A stretch of DNA of 64,000 bases from Prevotella sp. (GTDB lineage Bacteria; Bacteroidota; Bacteroidia; Bacteroidales; Bacteroidaceae): positions 1 to 64,000 of the forward strand of contig JAFZIL010000059.1 in assembly GCA_017554385.1 (NCBI GenBank), in the 5' to 3' direction. The notes under the pieces were generated by a model. That model had not been told where the DNA came from. It saw nothing but the letters and a program-made list of their open reading frames with translations, and made no database searches. The position numbers were made by a program, and so were the translations under genes. Shown one piece after another: positions 42,149 through 64,000 of the stretch (the first letter of the stretch is position 1; every line of letters starts with the position of its first letter).

Positions 42149-43828
42149 ATGTTCATCATCGTCATTGTCCTGTCTGTCGTAGCTGTTCTCGCCCTGTTTT
42201 TCATAGGGCGATGGGCATATTTTCGCGCCTTGCGCATACGAAACCGACTGATGATGGAGCGCGTTTTCACGAATATCGGCCACGAACTGCTGACGCCTCT
42301 GACCGTCATCTCGGCATCCATCGAAAGGCTGCGCATGGAGCAACCAGGCCATTCGAAGGACTACACGCTGATGGAACTGAACATAGAGCGCATGGTGAGG
42401 CTGCTGCAGCAGATACTCGAGACGAGCAAGTCGCAGACGGGCGAACTGAGGCTGCGCGTTGCCCAAGGCGACGTGATGGAGTATATAGCCAAGACGGCCC
42501 TCTGCATCGAACCTTTCGTAGCCAAGCGGGGGTTGCAGCTGAGCGTCCATTGCAACCCACGGTCGATGATGGGATGGATTGACTCTGACAAGCTCGACAA
42601 GGTTATCTACAACCTGATGTCGAATGCTGCCAAGTATACCAACAGCCCTGGGCGCGTTGACCTGACCGCCACCACCAACAAGACCTATGACCACGTGATC
42701 ATCAAGGTGAGCGATACCGGCATAGGCATTCCGCCTGAGAAGATGAAGCGGCTGTTCCAGCGCTTCTATGACGGCGACTACCGCTCGATGAAGACTTTTG
42801 GTACGGGGCTCGGCCTCGCCCTGACCCGCGACCTCGTCTATCTGCATGGAGGAACCATCGACTGTGAGAGCGAAGAGGGCAAGGGCACCACGTTTACCGT
42901 TACCCTACCCATCAACAAGGAGGCGTTCTCTTCCGCCCAGATCGACGAGAGCCACCAGCTGGTGTTAAGCAGTTCGCCTACGACAATACTCGATGTCGAG
43001 GAGCTGTTCCCCGCTGCCGACGAAACGCCAAAGAAACAGTCGGCTACCGTCGACTCTACAGACGATGAGTCCTACAAGATTCTGGTTGTTGAGGACAATG
43101 TCGAACTGCTGATGCTCATGCGCACCCTGTTGTGCCAGAAGTACAACGTGTTTACGGCGCATAACGGCGTCGAGGCGCTGGAGGTCATTGCCCGTCAAGA
43201 CCTTGACCTGGTTATCTCTGACGTAATGATGCCTGAGATGGATGGTAACGAGCTTACAAGGAAGATCAAGTCAGACCCTGACATGAGCCACCTGCCCGTC
43301 ATCCTCCTTACCGCACGTACACAGGAGGAAGACCGCAGGGAATCGATGCTGGTAGGAGCCGACGACTATATCACTAAGCCGTTCAAGATTGGCGACCTTC
43401 AGCTGCGTATTAATAATATGGTGGAGAACAGGAAGCGCATTCGACGCGACTTCATGTCCCAGCCCTTGGATGCGCCGCCACCCGTCACCCAGGAAGAAGA
43501 GTTCCTCAAGCGTGCCACCGAATGTGTGCAGGCCCACCTTAGCGACAGCGAGTTCGATCGCGACAGCTTTGCCGTAGAGATGGGGGCGTCCTCTTCCACT
43601 TTATATAATAAGTTGCGCGCCATCACAGGTCTTGGCGTCTCGTCCTTCATTCGTGACATTCGCATGAAAGAAGCCTATCGCATGGCCAGTCAACAACCTG
43701 GGCTTAGGGTCAGCGACCTTGCCTATAAGGTAGGGTTCAAGGATCCGAAGTACTTTGCGACGTGTTTCAAGAAGGAGTTTGGCGTACAGCCAAGCGAGTT
43801 TATCGAACAGTTGCAGCAGGCCAATTAA
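42149..43828 (+). CDS. short hybrid histidine kinase-response regulator with AraC output
   Basis: I start it at 42149 (MFIIVIVLSV), after the promoter, giving 559 residues; the frame is open back to 41987. Order: one membrane helix (about 1-25); HisKA with the phospho-histidine in IGHELLTPLT; HATPase (NLMSNAAKYT, DTGIGIP, GTGLGLAL); receiver (VVEDNVELLM, ISDVMMPEMDG, ITKPF); AraC-type helix-turn-helix at the C-terminus (VSDLAYKVGFKDPKYFATCF). Classical Bacteroidota one-protein two-component systems have a large periplasmic propeller sensor, which is absent here. The signal must come from the membrane, from a partner or from the cytoplasm. Confidence 0.88.
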   Translation: MFIIVIVLSVVAVLALFFIGRWAYFRALRIRNRLMMERVFTNIGHELLTPLTVISASIERLRMEQPGHSKDYTLMELNIERMVRLLQQILETSKSQTGELRLRVAQGDVMEYIAKTALCIEPFVAKRGLQLSVHCNPRSMMGWIDSDKLDKVIYNLMSNAAKYTNSPGRVDLTATTNKTYDHVIIKVSDTGIGIPPEKMKRLFQRFYDGDYRSMKTFGTGLGLALTRDLVYLHGGTIDCESEEGKGTTFTVTLPINKEAFSSAQIDESHQLVLSSSPTTILDVEELFPAADETPKKQSATVDSTDDESYKILVVEDNVELLMLMRTLLCQKYNVFTAHNGVEALEVIARQDLDLVISDVMMPEMDGNELTRKIKSDPDMSHLPVILLTARTQEEDRRESMLVGADDYITKPFKIGDLQLRINNMVENRKRIRRDFMSQPLDAPPPVTQEEEFLKRATECVQAHLSDSEFDRDSFAVEMGASSSTLYNKLRAITGLGVSSFIRDIRMKEAYRMASQQPGLRVSDLAYKVGFKDPKYFATCFKKEFGVQPSEFIEQLQQAN

Positions 43829-57968: not shown

Positions 57969-58421
57969 TTAATCGCCCTCCTGCTCCTCCGGCTCCTCGG
58001 GCTTGTCTCCGAGGCTGTCTACGCTGACGAACTTCGCCTTCTTGAGGAACTGGCGGCTGGAGATGTCCATCTCCTGCTCCTGCTCGGGCAGGAAGCGGAT
58101 GTGCAGGGCCTTGATGTTCTCGGCCACGTTGAACTTGTCGGGGTCGGTCTCGCCCTTGCCCTCGATGGTGGTGTAGAAGGTGCCGAGGCCGTCGATCTTC
58201 ACCTTCTTCGAGTTCAGGAGCTGCTCGATGAGGCAGGAGCGGAACTTCTCCAGCACGCCGAAGATGACATCGGGGGTGTAGATAGAGCCGTGCTCCGCGA
58301 TGTGCTCGGCCATGCCTCGCATGTCGAGGGTCTCCAGCGACTTCACGTAAGCGTAGTACTTGCCGAAGCCTGCACTGTGTTGGTTGTTGTTCTTACGCAA
58401 CAGATACAAAATCTTTGCCAT
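57969..58421 (-). CDS. HU-HIG family DNA-binding protein
   Basis: A 150-residue nucleoid protein, starting at 58421 (MAKILYLLRK). The HU-like domain has AEHIAEHGSIYTPDVIFGVL and KKVKIDGLGTFY (beta arm), and is followed by a linker and an acidic tail (PEEPEEQEGD). This is the HU-HIG type, which in Bacteroidales is commonly followed by a smalltalk gene, as here. A GGGCGATTAATCGCCC palindrome spans the stop codon. Confidence 0.88.
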   Translation of the reverse strand: MAKILYLLRKNNNQHSAGFGKYYAYVKSLETLDMRGMAEHIAEHGSIYTPDVIFGVLEKFRSCLIEQLLNSKKVKIDGLGTFYTTIEGKGETDPDKFNVAENIKALHIRFLPEQEQEMDISSRQFLKKAKFVSVDSLGDKPEEPEEQEGD

Positions 58422-58493
58422 AGTTGTGTGTGTTTTTGATGGTATTAGATTCACTTGCGGCGAACTTAACGGGTCGCCGACATCCCGCTCTTC

Positions 58494-58850: not shown

Positions 58851-59789
58851 CTATTGTTCACTGAGCAGCAGGTCACAAAGGTCGGTGTTAGCTGGGTAGG
58901 CTTCGAGTTGCCGCGATATGTTGTAGTCGATGCCTTTGGTGAGCTGCATCTGCCGGTTCCACTTTTCGTAGCAACCGCTATCGGGAAAGACCGTGACGCT
59001 ACGCCCTGCAAGGCAGCTGACACGCTCAGGCGAGAGTCCGCTGCTGCCGCAGGTGGCCAACCAGAGATGTTCGGGCTGACAGGCAGCCATGACGAGTGCC
59101 GTCTTCTCGCTCTCCACTATGCAAACATGGGCATCGGGCCGCTGTGGTAGCAGATGTTGGCCGAATAGGCATTGGTAGAGCTGCCAGTCGAGCGGCAACA
59201 CTCCTGCACGGATAAGCGGTATGTGTGTCCATCCCTGAAAGCCGTCGCGATGGCCGTCCTGACGGTATTGCATGATATGCCCCCCGTGGACCTGTCTCTG
59301 GTCGTCTATCTGCCAGAAGATGACGTCGCTGCGGCGGGTGGCACCGACAAGGTAGTCGTCGAAGACCTGCCGGAGTTGCTGCGCAGAGAGGTTCAGCCTT
59401 TGGGCAACGTCGGAAGCGAACCACTTCCAGAAGATGCTGCGTGGCGAATGGCTGCGGACGACATACTCCATGGGCAGGGGCTGGAACGGAGGCAGCGGTA
59501 CTGGCGTACAGTAGTTTGTCGTGCTTGTTGTAGGCTCCCGTGCCCACTGGTTGTCATGGTAATACTCCGAGGGTTTGTAGTGGTAGCCACAGGAGTGCTG
59601 GTGATCGCACTTGCCTACGATGTCGGCCACGTAGCGGAATCCGTTCTGTGTGTCGACATAGCGCACGAAGCACTTCTTCTTGCCGCAATGAGGACAGCTG
59701 AGCTTGCGTGGCTGATGTCCCGTCAGTTTCTTGCTCTCTAACTGGTAACGATAATCGGTATTCATAATCGTACGTTTTTGATGATTCAT
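58851..59789 (-). CDS. zinc-finger/Toprim-like primase (DUF6371-like)
   Basis: A 312-residue protein; MNTDYRYQLE at 59765 is an alternative start. The N-terminus has a CPHCGKKKC finger and later CDHQHSCGY, as in CHC2-type primase fingers. The C-terminal half has Toprim-like strands (AHVCIVESEKTALVMAA, LWLATCGSSG, SVTVFPDSGCYEKW) with acidic residues in ESE and PDSG. It resembles the DUF6371/PG0870-related proteins of Bacteroidota mobile DNA. With the ATPase upstream it may form a small replication or maintenance module. Confidence 0.75.
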   Translation of the reverse strand: MNHQKRTIMNTDYRYQLESKKLTGHQPRKLSCPHCGKKKCFVRYVDTQNGFRYVADIVGKCDHQHSCGYHYKPSEYYHDNQWAREPTTSTTNYCTPVPLPPFQPLPMEYVVRSHSPRSIFWKWFASDVAQRLNLSAQQLRQVFDDYLVGATRRSDVIFWQIDDQRQVHGGHIMQYRQDGHRDGFQGWTHIPLIRAGVLPLDWQLYQCLFGQHLLPQRPDAHVCIVESEKTALVMAACQPEHLWLATCGSSGLSPERVSCLAGRSVTVFPDSGCYEKWNRQMQLTKGIDYNISRQLEAYPANTDLCDLLLSEQ

Positions 59790-59874: not shown

Positions 59875-61044
59875 TCAGAAGGGTTGTGCGAGGTCGTTGG
59901 AGACCTGAATCATACCGTTGACCTCAACGAGGCTACCGTCATTCAGCCACTCTGTGATGTAGGTGGAGACAGTAGGACGCTTACGATTGAGCACCTTGAC
60001 AAGAATCTCCGTCAACTGCTTGCGGCTTACCACGCCACCCTTGTCGGTTAGGATGCGCAGGCACGTTTCAAGACGTTCCTTCTTCTCCTTGTCTATGGCT
60101 TCTTGGCGCTTCAGCTGCTGCTCGGCCCTGCGCTGTTCAAGCAACAGGCGGCGCTGCTCGTCAGCATCAATAATGTGGCCCTCCGAATCGAAGGTAATGC
60201 TCCATTCGGGCATTTCCTCATGACGAGCCTCGGAACACTTCACAGTAATGACGCTGCTGCCCTTCTCCTTGACGCACTCCAGTACCGTTGCGCTCTTCTG
60301 AGCCAACATGGTGCCGAGGTGGCCGCGCATGTTATGGTCCTCATCGGCCTTGTTGGTGTGGAGCACGCAGATGATGGCGCAGTTGTGCTGGTCGCTGAGT
60401 TTCAACAGCTCTTTGATCAGCTGTTTCGACTCTGTCTCGTCGTTGAACGAAGCCACGAACTCCACGATGCCGTCGAGCATCACCACCTGCGGCTTCTCGT
60501 CCTCGAGCACCACCTCGAGCAGCGGTAGCAGCTGTTCCTGGTCGATGCGGCGAAGCGAGTGAAGAGACAACTGTGAGTCGATGACTTCGGGTGGCAGTTC
60601 TGTCATCCGTGCAACATCCTCCAGGATGAGCTTCGTGTCGGTGCGGCTTTGCTCCGTATCGAAGAACACGATGCGAGGCTTTTCCAACAACGACTTCACG
60701 CGGAACATTGCTCCCAACAGCAGGGCGGCGATAAACACCTTCAGAGCTGTTGTCTTTCCTGCCTTTTGCTTGGCCTTGATGGCATGGATGTCGCGCAGGG
60801 CAAAGATGCCCTTTTCGTCAACCTCCAGCGCATACTCCTCGGGCGGAACCTCCGTGTCACTACGGATGCGCGTCGCACGGAGCATCTGACGGAGCTGCTC
60901 CTTTGTCTGTTCCTCAGCGGTTGGCTGAGCGACAGCCTCGCCCACGATGTCTTTCACCGTCATGGCGTGGTTGTCTATCTGTTCAGTCGGCTGTTCATGC
61001 TGCTGAACGTTTCCAGTCTCTAAGTGATCGAAAACCTTATCCAT
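59875..61044 (-). CDS. RecA-fold AAA ATPase of a mobile cassette
   Basis: A 389-residue protein. The P-loop reads KAKQKAGKTTALK, keeping GKT but lacking the first glycine of the usual GxxxxGKT. Walker B follows (QVVMLDGIVEFV), then CVLHTNKADE, in the style of RepA/AAA_25 helicase-like ATPases. The C-terminal part has a coiled coil (EQRRAEQQLKRQEAIDKEKK) and a winged-helix-like end. It is upstream of the primase-like gene. Confidence 0.78.
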   Translation of the reverse strand: MDKVFDHLETGNVQQHEQPTEQIDNHAMTVKDIVGEAVAQPTAEEQTKEQLRQMLRATRIRSDTEVPPEEYALEVDEKGIFALRDIHAIKAKQKAGKTTALKVFIAALLLGAMFRVKSLLEKPRIVFFDTEQSRTDTKLILEDVARMTELPPEVIDSQLSLHSLRRIDQEQLLPLLEVVLEDEKPQVVMLDGIVEFVASFNDETESKQLIKELLKLSDQHNCAIICVLHTNKADEDHNMRGHLGTMLAQKSATVLECVKEKGSSVITVKCSEARHEEMPEWSITFDSEGHIIDADEQRRLLLEQRRAEQQLKRQEAIDKEKKERLETCLRILTDKGGVVSRKQLTEILVKVLNRKRPTVSTYITEWLNDGSLVEVNGMIQVSNDLAQPF

Positions 61045-61237
61045 ACACTTTTCCTTTATTTAGTATGTTGAGGTTTACTCTCTTGCACCGGTCGGGCCTC
61101 GATATAGAGATTTTTCATCTTACCCACCGTTCCCCCTTGGCCCGTGCTCAGTTTTGAATGCCTTGGGGTACAGAATTCTGGCTCAAAGGTACTTGGTTTT
61201 CGCCAAATCACTAAGGCAGGAATGTAAAAAAGGAACA

Positions 61238-61270
61238 CAAAAAACCGTTCCTTTCGGCAAAAAGGAACGG
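61238..61270 (-). terminator. terminator of the ImmA/IrrE-type gene
   Basis: On the minus strand a perfect 10-bp stem (CCGTTCCTTT/AAAGGAACGG, loop 61255-61260) is followed by TTTTTTGTG, a standard factor-independent terminator. Confidence 0.85.
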
Positions 61271-61298: not shown

Positions 61299-62891
61299 TC
61301 AACTTAGAGGAAAACAGCGGGGCAAAGGTGGCTGATTGTAGATAAGCCCTAACTTCTTCAATCGGATGGTAGCAGCCTCGACCGACATATTCATGGCTTT
61401 GGCAATAGGCGTTATAATGTTCAGCACAGTGCAGCCACTATTTGCCTGTAGAGGATAGTAGACGGTCCCCAGGTGTTTTATCATAAAATGGTCGAACAGC
61501 AAACGGACAACAGGTGCTGGCATCAACAGGCATGCGGCGAAATGATTAGCCTGCCGCTCCATCCAATCATTTTCATTTGGATGTATTATCTGCCTATATG
61601 CTTTGGCATGCGCCATCACGTCATAATGAAGAACATAGTGCCCCACCTCGTGGCCCGTGTCAAATCGGGCACTATGGTAAAAGAACTGCTTTTCGTTGCT
61701 AATAATCACTTTTCTGTCTTCGAAATCAATCAACGCGCTTTTATCACCCGTATAACCTCTCTCGATACGCAAGCCCATGGACTTAGCCAACTTATAGGGG
61801 TCTATGGCGCATGGAGGCAATTTGTCATTTGGCTCGCAACGTTGTAGTAAACTCACAAGCTCATCTACTTCCGATTTGATAAACCCTAAAGCTATCTCTT
61901 CAATGTCATCGTTAGACAATACTGGTGCTTTGATTTTCTGACTCCGATTGACTGAAACGTTGTTCTTAATCAGGAGGTCAGCCAGAGAAAAGTAAAGAAT
62001 AGTGCCTTCAAGAGCATTCTTATAGGGATCGCAGGCAATGATGGGGCGTGTCATGGGCCTTTCGCCAGAGATCATTTGCCTCCAGTAATAATAATCTGTT
62101 CTTTCCGGTGAACGCGGTAAGACAAAACAATTCTCGTCTACCTCATATTCCAGATTGACCATCACAAGTCCAATATTAACCTTGCCAGCCTGATCTTGAA
62201 TCTTTTTGGGATAGGAGCAAGTCGAAACAATATATAGTTTCTTACTGGGGAGGGATGACATAGAGGTAAACTGTCCTTGCAAAGAGTACACGATGTCTGC
62301 TGTCACTGCTTCCTCTACACATTGAAAGACAATGACATGTGAGTATCGCTCTTCGTCCCTGAACTTCTGGGAAACATACTTTTCCACCGATAGGCTCACC
62401 CGCTGGCCATCATACGTATGATTGACGCAAACCCTGTCATAACTGCCAGTGGCCATTGCGTTGCTAACATACTTCTGCATGCGCTGTTGCAAGGTAGGAA
62501 GAGTGGGGGCTACTGCCTTCTCGACATCTTTTGTCAGCAACTCCACTGCCTCGTCGATAAGCGCGCTTACATAGATGTTATGTTCTTTATCAAAATCGTT
62601 TAGCTCACGGTTGTACCTAAACTTTTCCATGCTGTGGAATAGCGTTTCCTTGGTCTCTTCGTCTCGAAATATATGGGGACACTCCTCTATCAATAGCTTT
62701 GCGAACTCAGGAATGGTTATTCTTTCATTAAGGATTTTCAGGTGCGTCTTACTAACCCAAAATACCAGCTTCCAGTAACTCTTATCATTCTTTTTCTTAA
62801 TCCACTCAGCAACACCATGCTCTATACGCCAAACCCACTTGTCGGCTTCCTGCGGTTGATTGAAATACTTCAGGTTATCTGTGTTATCCAT
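61299..62891 (-). CDS. ImmA/IrrE-type metallopeptidase with large N-terminal region
   Basis: A 530-residue protein. The zinc motif H414-E-V-G-H418 and downstream WMERQANHFAACLLMP (third ligand glutamate and family tail) identify the ImmA/IrrE peptidase fold in the last 170 residues. The first 350 residues are not recognised; they contain a helical region (about 1-150) and an alpha/beta region (SHVIVFQCVEEAVTADIVYS, KLYIVSTCSYPKKI). ImmA peptidases usually cleave a repressor; no XRE repressor is fused or adjacent inside the window. It is transcribed away from the methyltransferase gene and has an operator-like inverted repeat at its promoter. Confidence 0.78.
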   Translation of the reverse strand: MDNTDNLKYFNQPQEADKWVWRIEHGVAEWIKKKNDKSYWKLVFWVSKTHLKILNERITIPEFAKLLIEECPHIFRDEETKETLFHSMEKFRYNRELNDFDKEHNIYVSALIDEAVELLTKDVEKAVAPTLPTLQQRMQKYVSNAMATGSYDRVCVNHTYDGQRVSLSVEKYVSQKFRDEERYSHVIVFQCVEEAVTADIVYSLQGQFTSMSSLPSKKLYIVSTCSYPKKIQDQAGKVNIGLVMVNLEYEVDENCFVLPRSPERTDYYYWRQMISGERPMTRPIIACDPYKNALEGTILYFSLADLLIKNNVSVNRSQKIKAPVLSNDDIEEIALGFIKSEVDELVSLLQRCEPNDKLPPCAIDPYKLAKSMGLRIERGYTGDKSALIDFEDRKVIISNEKQFFYHSARFDTGHEVGHYVLHYDVMAHAKAYRQIIHPNENDWMERQANHFAACLLMPAPVVRLLFDHFMIKHLGTVYYPLQANSGCTVLNIITPIAKAMNMSVEAATIRLKKLGLIYNQPPLPRCFPLS

Positions 62892-62916
62892 TAGATAAAA
62901 TATTTAAGACAGACTG

Positions 62917-62974
62917 CAAAGTTACCCATTTTGGACAACATTACCAAGACTTTTTCAAAAAAAGTTGTCCAAAA
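62917..62974 (-). promoter_or_regulatory. promoter with 11-bp inverted repeat operator
   Basis: TTGG (62944-62947), a 19-base spacer and TAACTTTG (62917-62924) on the minus strand. TTTTGGACAAC (62929-62939) and GTTGTCCAAAA (62964-62974) form a perfect inverted repeat, 24 bases apart. The left half lies in the spacer and the right half upstream of the -33 element, a classic repressor layout. Confidence 0.75.
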
Positions 62975-63096
62975 AGTGCAACTTACCATCATTTACCCCA
63001 ATTCTCTCTTACCTTCCTCAGCAACCGTGAGAAGGACGCAAGCCACATTCCCTTGAAAAAAACTCACGTTTTGTTTCCTGAATCGAATTTATTTTG

Positions 63097-63104
63097 TATA
63101 TTTG
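63097..63104 (+). promoter_or_regulatory. -7 box of the methyltransferase gene
   Basis: TATATTTG, 19 bases before the ATG at 63124; a TTTG at 63070-63073 is 23 bases upstream of it. Confidence 0.6.
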
Positions 63105-63123
63105 CAACCAAATTACGATTGAT

Positions 63124-64000
63124 ATGTCAGTAGGCGAATCTCTAAATAAAGCATATAATGTTACTTCGGCCTTCGTGGAGTCGATACCCAAGAAGGAACG
63201 AAAGAAATATGGCCAGTTCTTTACGTCACAAAAGACGGCAGAATTCATGGCTTCACTATTCACAATTGATTTTTCCAAGCCAGAGTTAAGACTGTTGGAT
63301 GCTGGTGCCGGTACTGGTTTGTTAACAACAGCATTGGTGGAAAGACTCAGAAATAGTGGATACAAAGGAGAAATCTTTGCTGTTTGTTATGAGAATGACA
63401 TTAAGGTTCTACCTACATTGGCAGAAAATTTGGAGAATCTGAAGAATACATTAGGTATCAAATATGAAATAAGGATTGACAATTACCTTACTTCTCAGAA
63501 CTTCGTTAGTGCCGACTTCTTTAAGAAGGAAGCAGAGGAGTTTGACATGATTATCGGCAACCCTCCATATCTGAAGATTGCCAAAGATGCTCCTGAAGCT
63601 TTAGCTATGCCTGAAGTATGCTATGGTGCCCCCAATTTGTATTTCCTGTTTTGGGCAATGGGCATCAACAATCTGAAGGATGGTGAGGAAATGGTTTATA
63701 TTATTCCTCGCTCTTGGACTTCTGGAGCGTATTTCGAGCGTTTCCGTAAATTCTTGTTCCGTCATTGTGTTATCACTAACATCCATATTTTCGGTAGTAG
63801 AGATAAGGTGTTTGACGGCGAATCGGTTTTGCAGGAAACTATGATTATTAAAGTTAAAAAGACAAGGGAGAAACCACAATACGTGAAGATGTCATCAAGC
63901 GAGACTTCCGACTTTGCTGATATTAAATACTACGATGTTGATTATAACACCATCGTTGCACCTAACCAGTTTGTTTTCCTTGTTACGAGTCAGGAAGAGG
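63124..64000 (+). CDS. N6-adenine DNA methyltransferase (Eco57I-like), partial
   Basis: The frame starts at 63124 (MSVGESLNKA) and is still open at the window end, giving 292 residues so far. The AdoMet motif I reads LLDAGAGTGLLT near residue 60 and the catalytic motif IV reads IIGNPPYLK near residue 145. YGQFFTSQKTAEFM near residue 30 is typical of Eco57I/TaqI-type adenine methylases. The bases are more AT-rich than the left part of the window, as often in acquired defence genes. Whether it carries or is followed by a nuclease cannot be seen. Confidence 0.88.
   Translation, partial: MSVGESLNKAYNVTSAFVESIPKKERKKYGQFFTSQKTAEFMASLFTIDFSKPELRLLDAGAGTGLLTTALVERLRNSGYKGEIFAVCYENDIKVLPTLAENLENLKNTLGIKYEIRIDNYLTSQNFVSADFFKKEAEEFDMIIGNPPYLKIAKDAPEALAMPEVCYGAPNLYFLFWAMGINNLKDGEEMVYIIPRSWTSGAYFERFRKFLFRHCVITNIHIFGSRDKVFDGESVLQETMIIKVKKTREKPQYVKMSSSETSDFADIKYYDVDYNTIVAPNQFVFLVTSQEE

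Follow-up and report, generated by a model that had tools for sequence, protein, structure and literature searches.

What is the work of a large predicted peptidase whose gene stands back to back with a restriction-modification (RM) operon in Prevotella? The question is raised by a 64,000-nucleotide stretch of Prevotella sp. DNA (assembly GCA_017554385.1, contig JAFZIL010000059.1), here called the window, in which a 530-residue protein of the ImmA/IrrE type faces an adenine methylase near the right-hand end. A preliminary description, drawn from the letters alone, had proposed a regulated defence system in which the peptidase senses damage, phage or loss of methylation and controls or executes a restriction or abortive response. 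The window is positions 1-64000 of a 97,768-base contig, and genes were read onward past base 64000. Here we compare the protein and its neighbours across 17 loci, and we find that a putative helicase-primase pair, which is itself exchanged, accompanies the peptidase more steadily than any RM system does. At a probability of roughly 45%, we read the locus as a DNA-triggered proteolytic switch in a compact modular helicase-primase island with RM cargo.

Anatomy of the peptidase

61299..62891, minus strand: long-form Mrr-like/ImmA-IrrE peptidase, 530 amino acids (aa), an open reading frame (ORF) with an ATG start
61317..61874, minus strand: ImmA/IrrE peptidase domain, residues ~340-525, with HEVGH and a distal Glu (Pfam, alignment, CapP 7t5t profile)
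62097..62495, minus strand: probable degenerate Mrr-type nuclease domain, residues ~133-265, catalytic D and K lost (profile comparison, alignment)

The HEVGH motif and glutamate ligand of the preliminary description are borne out by a Peptidase_M78 match (PF06114), which spans residues 389-510 of the Met-less 529-aa form (E 7.9e-10; score 39 bits, cut-off 22), and by the relatives, in which both the zinc motif and the later Glu, in WMERQAN, are kept. The PADLOC capP model matches residues 356-467 (E 1.3e-18), and profile comparison finds CapP (7t5t, E 2.3e-12) and IrrE (3dte, E 0.0013). The protein thus belongs to the same peptidase superfamily as CapP/CapH and PprI(IrrE)/DdrO, from which it differs by an extra N-terminal part and a probable dead Mrr-type domain. 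The XRE-peptidase fusions (RmrA/spr1629 type; PD-lambda-2B, PMC9519451) likewise combine an ImmA/IrrE-type peptidase with a defence-like setting; unlike them, the window protein, which the RmrA and spr1629 models match in its peptidase part only, has no helix-turn-helix (HTH) domain that we could find within its 530 residues.

The clue to the first 350 residues, which the preliminary description could not place, came from a three-way alignment of the window protein with two others, the full-length L006 protein (genome G194, 29% identity) and the 410-aa L007 protein (genome G229), which starts with an Mrr_cat domain (PF04471, 3.3e-07). By profile comparison, the long forms match this short-form nuclease domain from about residue 133 (probability 98.5, E 1.5e-15), and the short-form domain in turn matches a genuine Mrr protein (E 1.4e-7); in Pfam, the window protein has no Mrr family match of its own. 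The catalytic D and K are gone in all 17 long forms, the window protein included, with the K falling within a two-residue gap, while D...ExK is retained in 12/12 short forms. The peptidase motif HExxH is intact in 16 of the 17 long forms and in every one of the 12 short forms. Residues 1-130 matched nothing to which they were compared, neither the alternative slot protein described below nor eight helicase/primase-side proteins. From these matches and conserved residues, the 530-aa product is predicted to be a zinc ImmA/IrrE-type peptidase behind a nuclease-dead Mrr-type domain and an N-terminal part of about 130 residues that is still unplaced. The long form of L120 (9001-10641) reads HDGGH at the HExxH position, and this peptidase is possibly inactive.

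The short Mrr-ImmA/IrrE fusions occur in several phyla and share the nuclease-then-peptidase order of the long form; unlike it, they have no N-terminal part and still carry D...ExK. The literature searches made returned no published name for them. Outside the bacterial family of the window, short forms with an intact D...ExK were seen in Rheinheimera (L036), Photobacterium (L037), Methylobacter (L040), Pseudomonas (L048), Akkermansia (L057) and a viral contig (L008), each with no methylase probe match within 5 kb; these may be stand-alone nuclease-protease systems.

The window protein as the sole query was matched in 3/301 family genomes and in 1/395 of a phylum sample (the window's own genome), and it found no relative in the genome_contigs set; plasmid and phage searches returned 3 and 1 records, matched in the peptidase part only. 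A three-row profile matched 14/399 family genomes, short and partial matches counted, and a long-form profile 12/249 genus genomes, two of these being short forms. Of the 17 long forms studied, L035 (Prevotella sp.) comes from genome_contigs and L134 from IMG/VR. The islands of L035 and of genome G861, from the same genus, are near-identical, and L035 and L212 are near-copies (97.6%) that should count once.

A steadier neighbour: the helicase-primase pair

59875..61044, minus strand: AAA_25 ATPase, putative helicase, 389 aa (PF13481, 1.8e-12)
58851..59789, minus strand: Zn-ribbon and DUF6371 protein, putative primase, 312 aa (PF19898, 1.4e-40; PF21957, 2.7e-20)
57969..58454, minus strand: HU-HIG DNA-binding protein, 161 aa (PF18291, 2e-17)

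The DUF6371 protein is called a primase by reference to its partner and to PG0870-type annotation rather than through a match to a primase model. Helicase-primase genes lie downstream on the peptidase strand in 16/17 loci, with the first gene 144 to about 560 bp past the peptidase stop; the pair is supported in 13 of the 17 by domain-family matches or an evident resemblance to such proteins, and in 3 by weak similarity. In the seventeenth locus, L134, a group II intron protein takes the place of the pair, after which the contig ends. Four types of pair were seen:

AAA_25 and DUF6371: window, L006, L215, L217
helicase-like protein and CHC2/Toprim primase: L118, L120, L121 (helicase label from weak, below-cut-off DUF3987 matches in two loci and from mutual similarity)
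BT4734-like_N and PriCT_2/DUF3987: L115, L214, L216, L218, L219, L220
unnamed pair without a Pfam match: L035, L212, L213 (larger protein weakly like the CHC2-pair helicase, ~1e-10 to 1e-8)

In L035 and L212 a short ORF stands between the peptidase and the pair. The accessible part of PMC5862659 classes BT4734 as an archaeo-eukaryotic primase family and DUF3987 as a predicted mobile-element helicase.

On a maximum-likelihood tree of the peptidase, the AAA_25 type falls in three places, and three changes of pair are forced by well-supported branches: the window protein pairs with L220, L006 with L134, L218 and L219, and L215/L217 with L115/L214. Exchange is also visible on a shorter scale, between L215 and L217, in which a 5.0-kb segment reaching from the HU gene to a point just above the peptidase is 81% identical. 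Two short conserved blocks enclose cargo that is unrelated between the two loci, and different host genes stand at the left end. The second conserved block (L215 10843-10965, L217 10894-11021) stands directly ahead of these unrelated operons and is possibly a leader or a site of exchange.

Restriction-modification as exchangeable cargo

63124..64000, plus strand, running on to window-equivalent 64593: Eco57I-type adenine methylase by Pfam, 489 aa (ATG) or 499 aa (TTG, 63094)
Beyond the window, equivalent 64581-65525 (L002 7582-8526), next after the methylase: BsuBI/PstI endonuclease, 314 aa

An Eco57I-like methylase facing the peptidase across a short promoter region had been described, and it stands. 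Past the window end, the adjacent endonuclease (PF06616, 7.5e-60; PF17728, 2.1e-37; closest solved relative SdaI 2ixs, E 4e-48) completes an ordinary type II RM system of the BsuBI/PstI kind (SdaI family), a pair without notable difference in itself. Such a standard, complete system on the right flank was one of the findings that the preliminary description had named as telling against its proposal; the other, a lack of repeated linkage between peptidase and RM genes, was not what we saw. A count of their co-occurrence, which it had called for, places a methylase probe match within 5 kb in 9/17 long-form loci, among seven kinds of RM system, their identities being assigned by Pfam, by PADLOC or by resemblance to genes so identified:

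window: Eco57I-type and BsuBI/PstI
L006: fused C5-EcoO109I
L035 and its near-copy L212: C5 and BsuBI-family
L115 and L219: EcoRI-type methylase and DUF262 endonuclease
L118: NotI and D12 methylase
L134: DpnII with two methylases
L217: MmeI-type IIG

L215 carries an HSDR_N-domain gene and an ion-channel gene in place of RM, and no RM gene was seen on either side in L120, L121 and L218, not every neighbour there having been searched by family. In L213, L214, L216 and L220 the peptidase starts at most about 3 kb from a contig end, and that side is incompletely read. The viral-filed contig of L134 (6189-9923) holds the DpnII system, the long-form peptidase and, downstream, the group II intron protein.

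With the same methylase probes and distance, 1/12 short forms and 3/77 other ImmA loci had a match, a contrast that is biased because part of the probe set derives from these very long-form loci. An earlier probe set found a methylase near 4/76 other ImmA loci; 8 loci without an ImmA ORF by profile are excluded from both of these counts. In background cassettes of the BT4734 family, a methylase-like ORF was present in 3/20, anywhere in the 7.7-14 kb read, and this background is a poor match for the question because just 3/20 matched any peptidase-linked helicase-primase probe. A fixed two-gene system of peptidase and methylase was considered and rejected: near-identical peptidases face different cargo, and the kind of RM varies. 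Read across these loci by similarity and domain content, the helicase-primase pair is the steadier neighbour of the peptidase, and both the pair type and the RM cargo are exchanged.

A structured RNA candidate before helicase-primase genes

61069..61169, minus strand: candidate pseudoknotted leader RNA, scoring 76.0 bits under model R1, to whose construction this sequence contributed

An element of about 100 nucleotides between peptidase and helicase is common to six loci (window, L006, L115, L218, L219 and L220). An exact-pattern search, with one hit in 80 genomes, had suggested that it belongs with peptidase loci; that view was refuted when a covariance model built from the six leaders found it in 19/200 genus genomes at E<=0.01, in 22 places, 3 of them the training set. 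Surroundings were read for 14 of the 19 new places. At E<=2e-6 there are 11 of these, and 9 have a matched helicase or primase gene downstream on the same strand, at most about 700 bp away, some with a short ORF before it; at L254 the gene that comes next has no match but is followed by a primase-like one, and the L253 leader lies at a contig end. Among the three weaker places, L257 and L259 precede helicase/primase genes and L258 does not. Across L246-L257 and L259, the RNA stands before several helicase-primase types, with the peptidase present or not.

An alignment of 19 leader sequences gives a four-helix pseudoknotted structure with 85.3% paired cells. Two-sided changes affect 14 pairs and 52 cells, against 17.5 (standard deviation 3.8) in shuffles and 11-15 in slid controls. 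The counts for helices 1 and 3 are biased in their favour, because both helices were in the model used for the alignment. For helix 4, the pseudoknot, which that model did not include, two-sided changes are nevertheless present in 3 pairs; helix 2 is almost invariant and carries no weight as proof. Folding of the six leaders as single sequences is unremarkable (z-scores -1.98 to 0.20), and no Rfam match was found in the window, L218-L220 or L246-L253. The covariation makes the leader a candidate structured RNA whichever functional reading of the locus holds.

At six leader loci without the peptidase, a single family of mutually similar proteins of 372-399 aa (pairwise E<=1e-8), unrelated to the peptidase, fills its slot upstream of the leader:

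L246: 3306-4424
L247: 7692-8852
L248: 5219-6349
L251: 7433-8566
L252: 5431-6558
L254: 6054-7253

Near these genes lie an EcoRI-type RM system (L251) and a methylase-like gene (L247 and L248). L253, at its contig edge, has an MmeI-like enzyme that shares 67% identity with the L217 enzyme.

A proposed DNA-triggered switch and its rivals

The position of the peptidase, between exchangeable RM genes and exchangeable replication genes, makes a DNA-sensing switch likelier than a part of a restriction enzyme. In the mechanism that we propose, the dead nuclease domain, perhaps together with the N-terminal part, would bind a DNA signal, which may be single-stranded, damaged or phage DNA; binding would activate the ImmA/IrrE-type peptidase, which would then cut a repressor or partner, and cleavage would switch the helicase-primase module and, perhaps, the RM operon next to it. 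The RM system would be cargo that protects or stabilises the island. The DNA sensing, the proteolytic switching and the choice of operon are what we infer from this arrangement and from relatives: PprI and CapP are described in the accessible text of PMC10904395 as cutting repressors when single-stranded DNA is present, that is, as DNA-triggered switches. Unlike CapP, whose setting is an operon of the cyclic oligonucleotide-based antiphage signalling system, the window protein has helicase-primase and RM genes as neighbours. The earlier proposal of regulated defence therefore survives in part, in the recurrent methylase company and the switch-type relatives; against it stand the standard nature of the RM system, its exchange or absence, and the steadier helicase-primase genes.

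Several results weigh against the proposed switch. No substrate of the peptidase was found. The preliminary description had pointed to the sequence right of base 64000 for a nuclease or an XRE repressor; the nuclease is there, and Pfam finds no HTH or XRE domain in the six main island ORFs and two small ORFs behind the endonuclease (ORFs below 80 aa and distant genes lay outside that scan), so that the window island yielded no HTH repressor, whether neighbouring or fused, of the kind that CapP/CapH, PprI/DdrO and ImmA/ImmR have. The long forms, compared directly with the genuine Mrr protein, gave no significant profile match. The leader is without a good model match in the other 11 of the 17 peptidase loci, two weak matches near the threshold being sited elsewhere or below 16 bits, and since it also stands before such genes without the peptidase, it is a feature of helicase-primase operons and not of the peptidase alone. 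Helicase and peptidase need not share one transcript, because a terminator-like hairpin follows the peptidase and a promoter-like box of the Bacteroidetes kind seems to precede the leader, both read by eye and unscored:

61239..61270, minus strand: terminator-like hairpin CCGTTCC...GGAACGG and T run after the peptidase stop

As for mobility, no integrase or relaxase was found among the scanned window-island ORFs, the other loci being scanned in part, and no empty site in eight stretches read around matches to the flanking phosphatase, which was matched in 55/70 genomes and around which gene order is not conserved in those stretches. Elsewhere in the window (42267-42357, minus strand), ARAGORN calls a tRNA-Arg(tcg) inside a long ORF, without Rfam confirmation and likely falsely.

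A wider version of the proposal would have the dead-nuclease-sensor peptidase, or the slot protein, act with the leader RNA to gate swappable helicase-primase operons in an as yet undescribed immunity or island-control system, with swappable RM as its restriction arm; we consider this unlikely.

The peptidase could instead execute defence, as a back-up abortive module guarding the RM system or the helicase-primase genes, in which the dead nuclease domain would sense escaped DNA or attacked replication and the peptidase would cut a vital host or phage protein. RM systems do recur beside it, short relatives with an intact nuclease adjoin DpnI and Mrr genes (L116) or a SacI-type RM system (L119), and the tested defence system PD-lambda-2 contains an Xre-peptidase fusion, according to the accessible text of PMC9519451. 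Such a role does not require the constant helicase-primase company, however, and 6/12 short forms, from genome_contigs and viral_contigs, have no methylase probe match within 5 kb; we regard it as improbable. Around the L007 short form, type I RM genes were read from the ORF list, not by family search.

The view closest to the preliminary description makes the peptidase a dedicated controller of the facing RM operon, acting through the shared promoter region in place of a C protein. The start codons of peptidase and methylase are about 200-230 bp apart, and between them lies a perfect 11-bp inverted repeat, TTTTGGACAAC:

62929..62974, no strand assigned: inverted repeat TTTTGGACAAC...GTTGTCCAAAA, candidate operator upstream of the peptidase

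The core TTGGACAA is found upstream of the peptidase in the window, L214, L215 and L217, where 6/7 occurrences are at most 350 bp upstream, and is a candidate operator for a putative repressor. In 5 of the 9 loci with RM genes, these genes and the peptidase are divergently arranged, a layout that fits a controller. The RM genes are nevertheless co-directional in L035, L212 and L134 and lie beyond the primase in L118, the core is absent upstream of the peptidase in the other 13 of the 17 loci, and RM type varies or RM is missing while the helicase-primase pair stays. We hold this reading to be very unlikely.

Equally doubtful is simple clustering, in which defence genes tend to insert at helicase-primase cassettes and the peptidase would be another passenger, without a working tie to its neighbours: the window peptidase and RM genes do form a low-GC block (39-45% guanine plus cytosine) beside helicase-primase genes and near flanks of mostly 51-57% (the far right returns to 45-51%), peptidase GC is below helicase-primase GC in 16/16 loci, and an unrelated family occupies the slot at six leader loci, but an order and strand that stay constant in 16/17 loci despite exchange of the pair exceed what loose clustering would lead one to expect.

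Meaning for Bacteroidales islands

Our literature search, with supplements and most subscription papers outside it, found no description of this arrangement or of the leader RNA. The nearest parallel in organisation is CapK/CapS, which the accessible text of PMC13373217 presents as a modular, DNA-damage-responsive regulator beside varied immune operons; CapK/CapS is a kinase-repressor pair of unrelated proteins, and in the present case position alone connects the peptidase to an immune operon. If the switch reading is true, the locus would be a further case of modular regulators next to diverse immune operons, and RM systems in these bacteria would often travel not alone, but in the company of a protein sensor and of a module of the replication type. 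It would also give the helicase-primase/HU cassettes of Bacteroidales a testable job.

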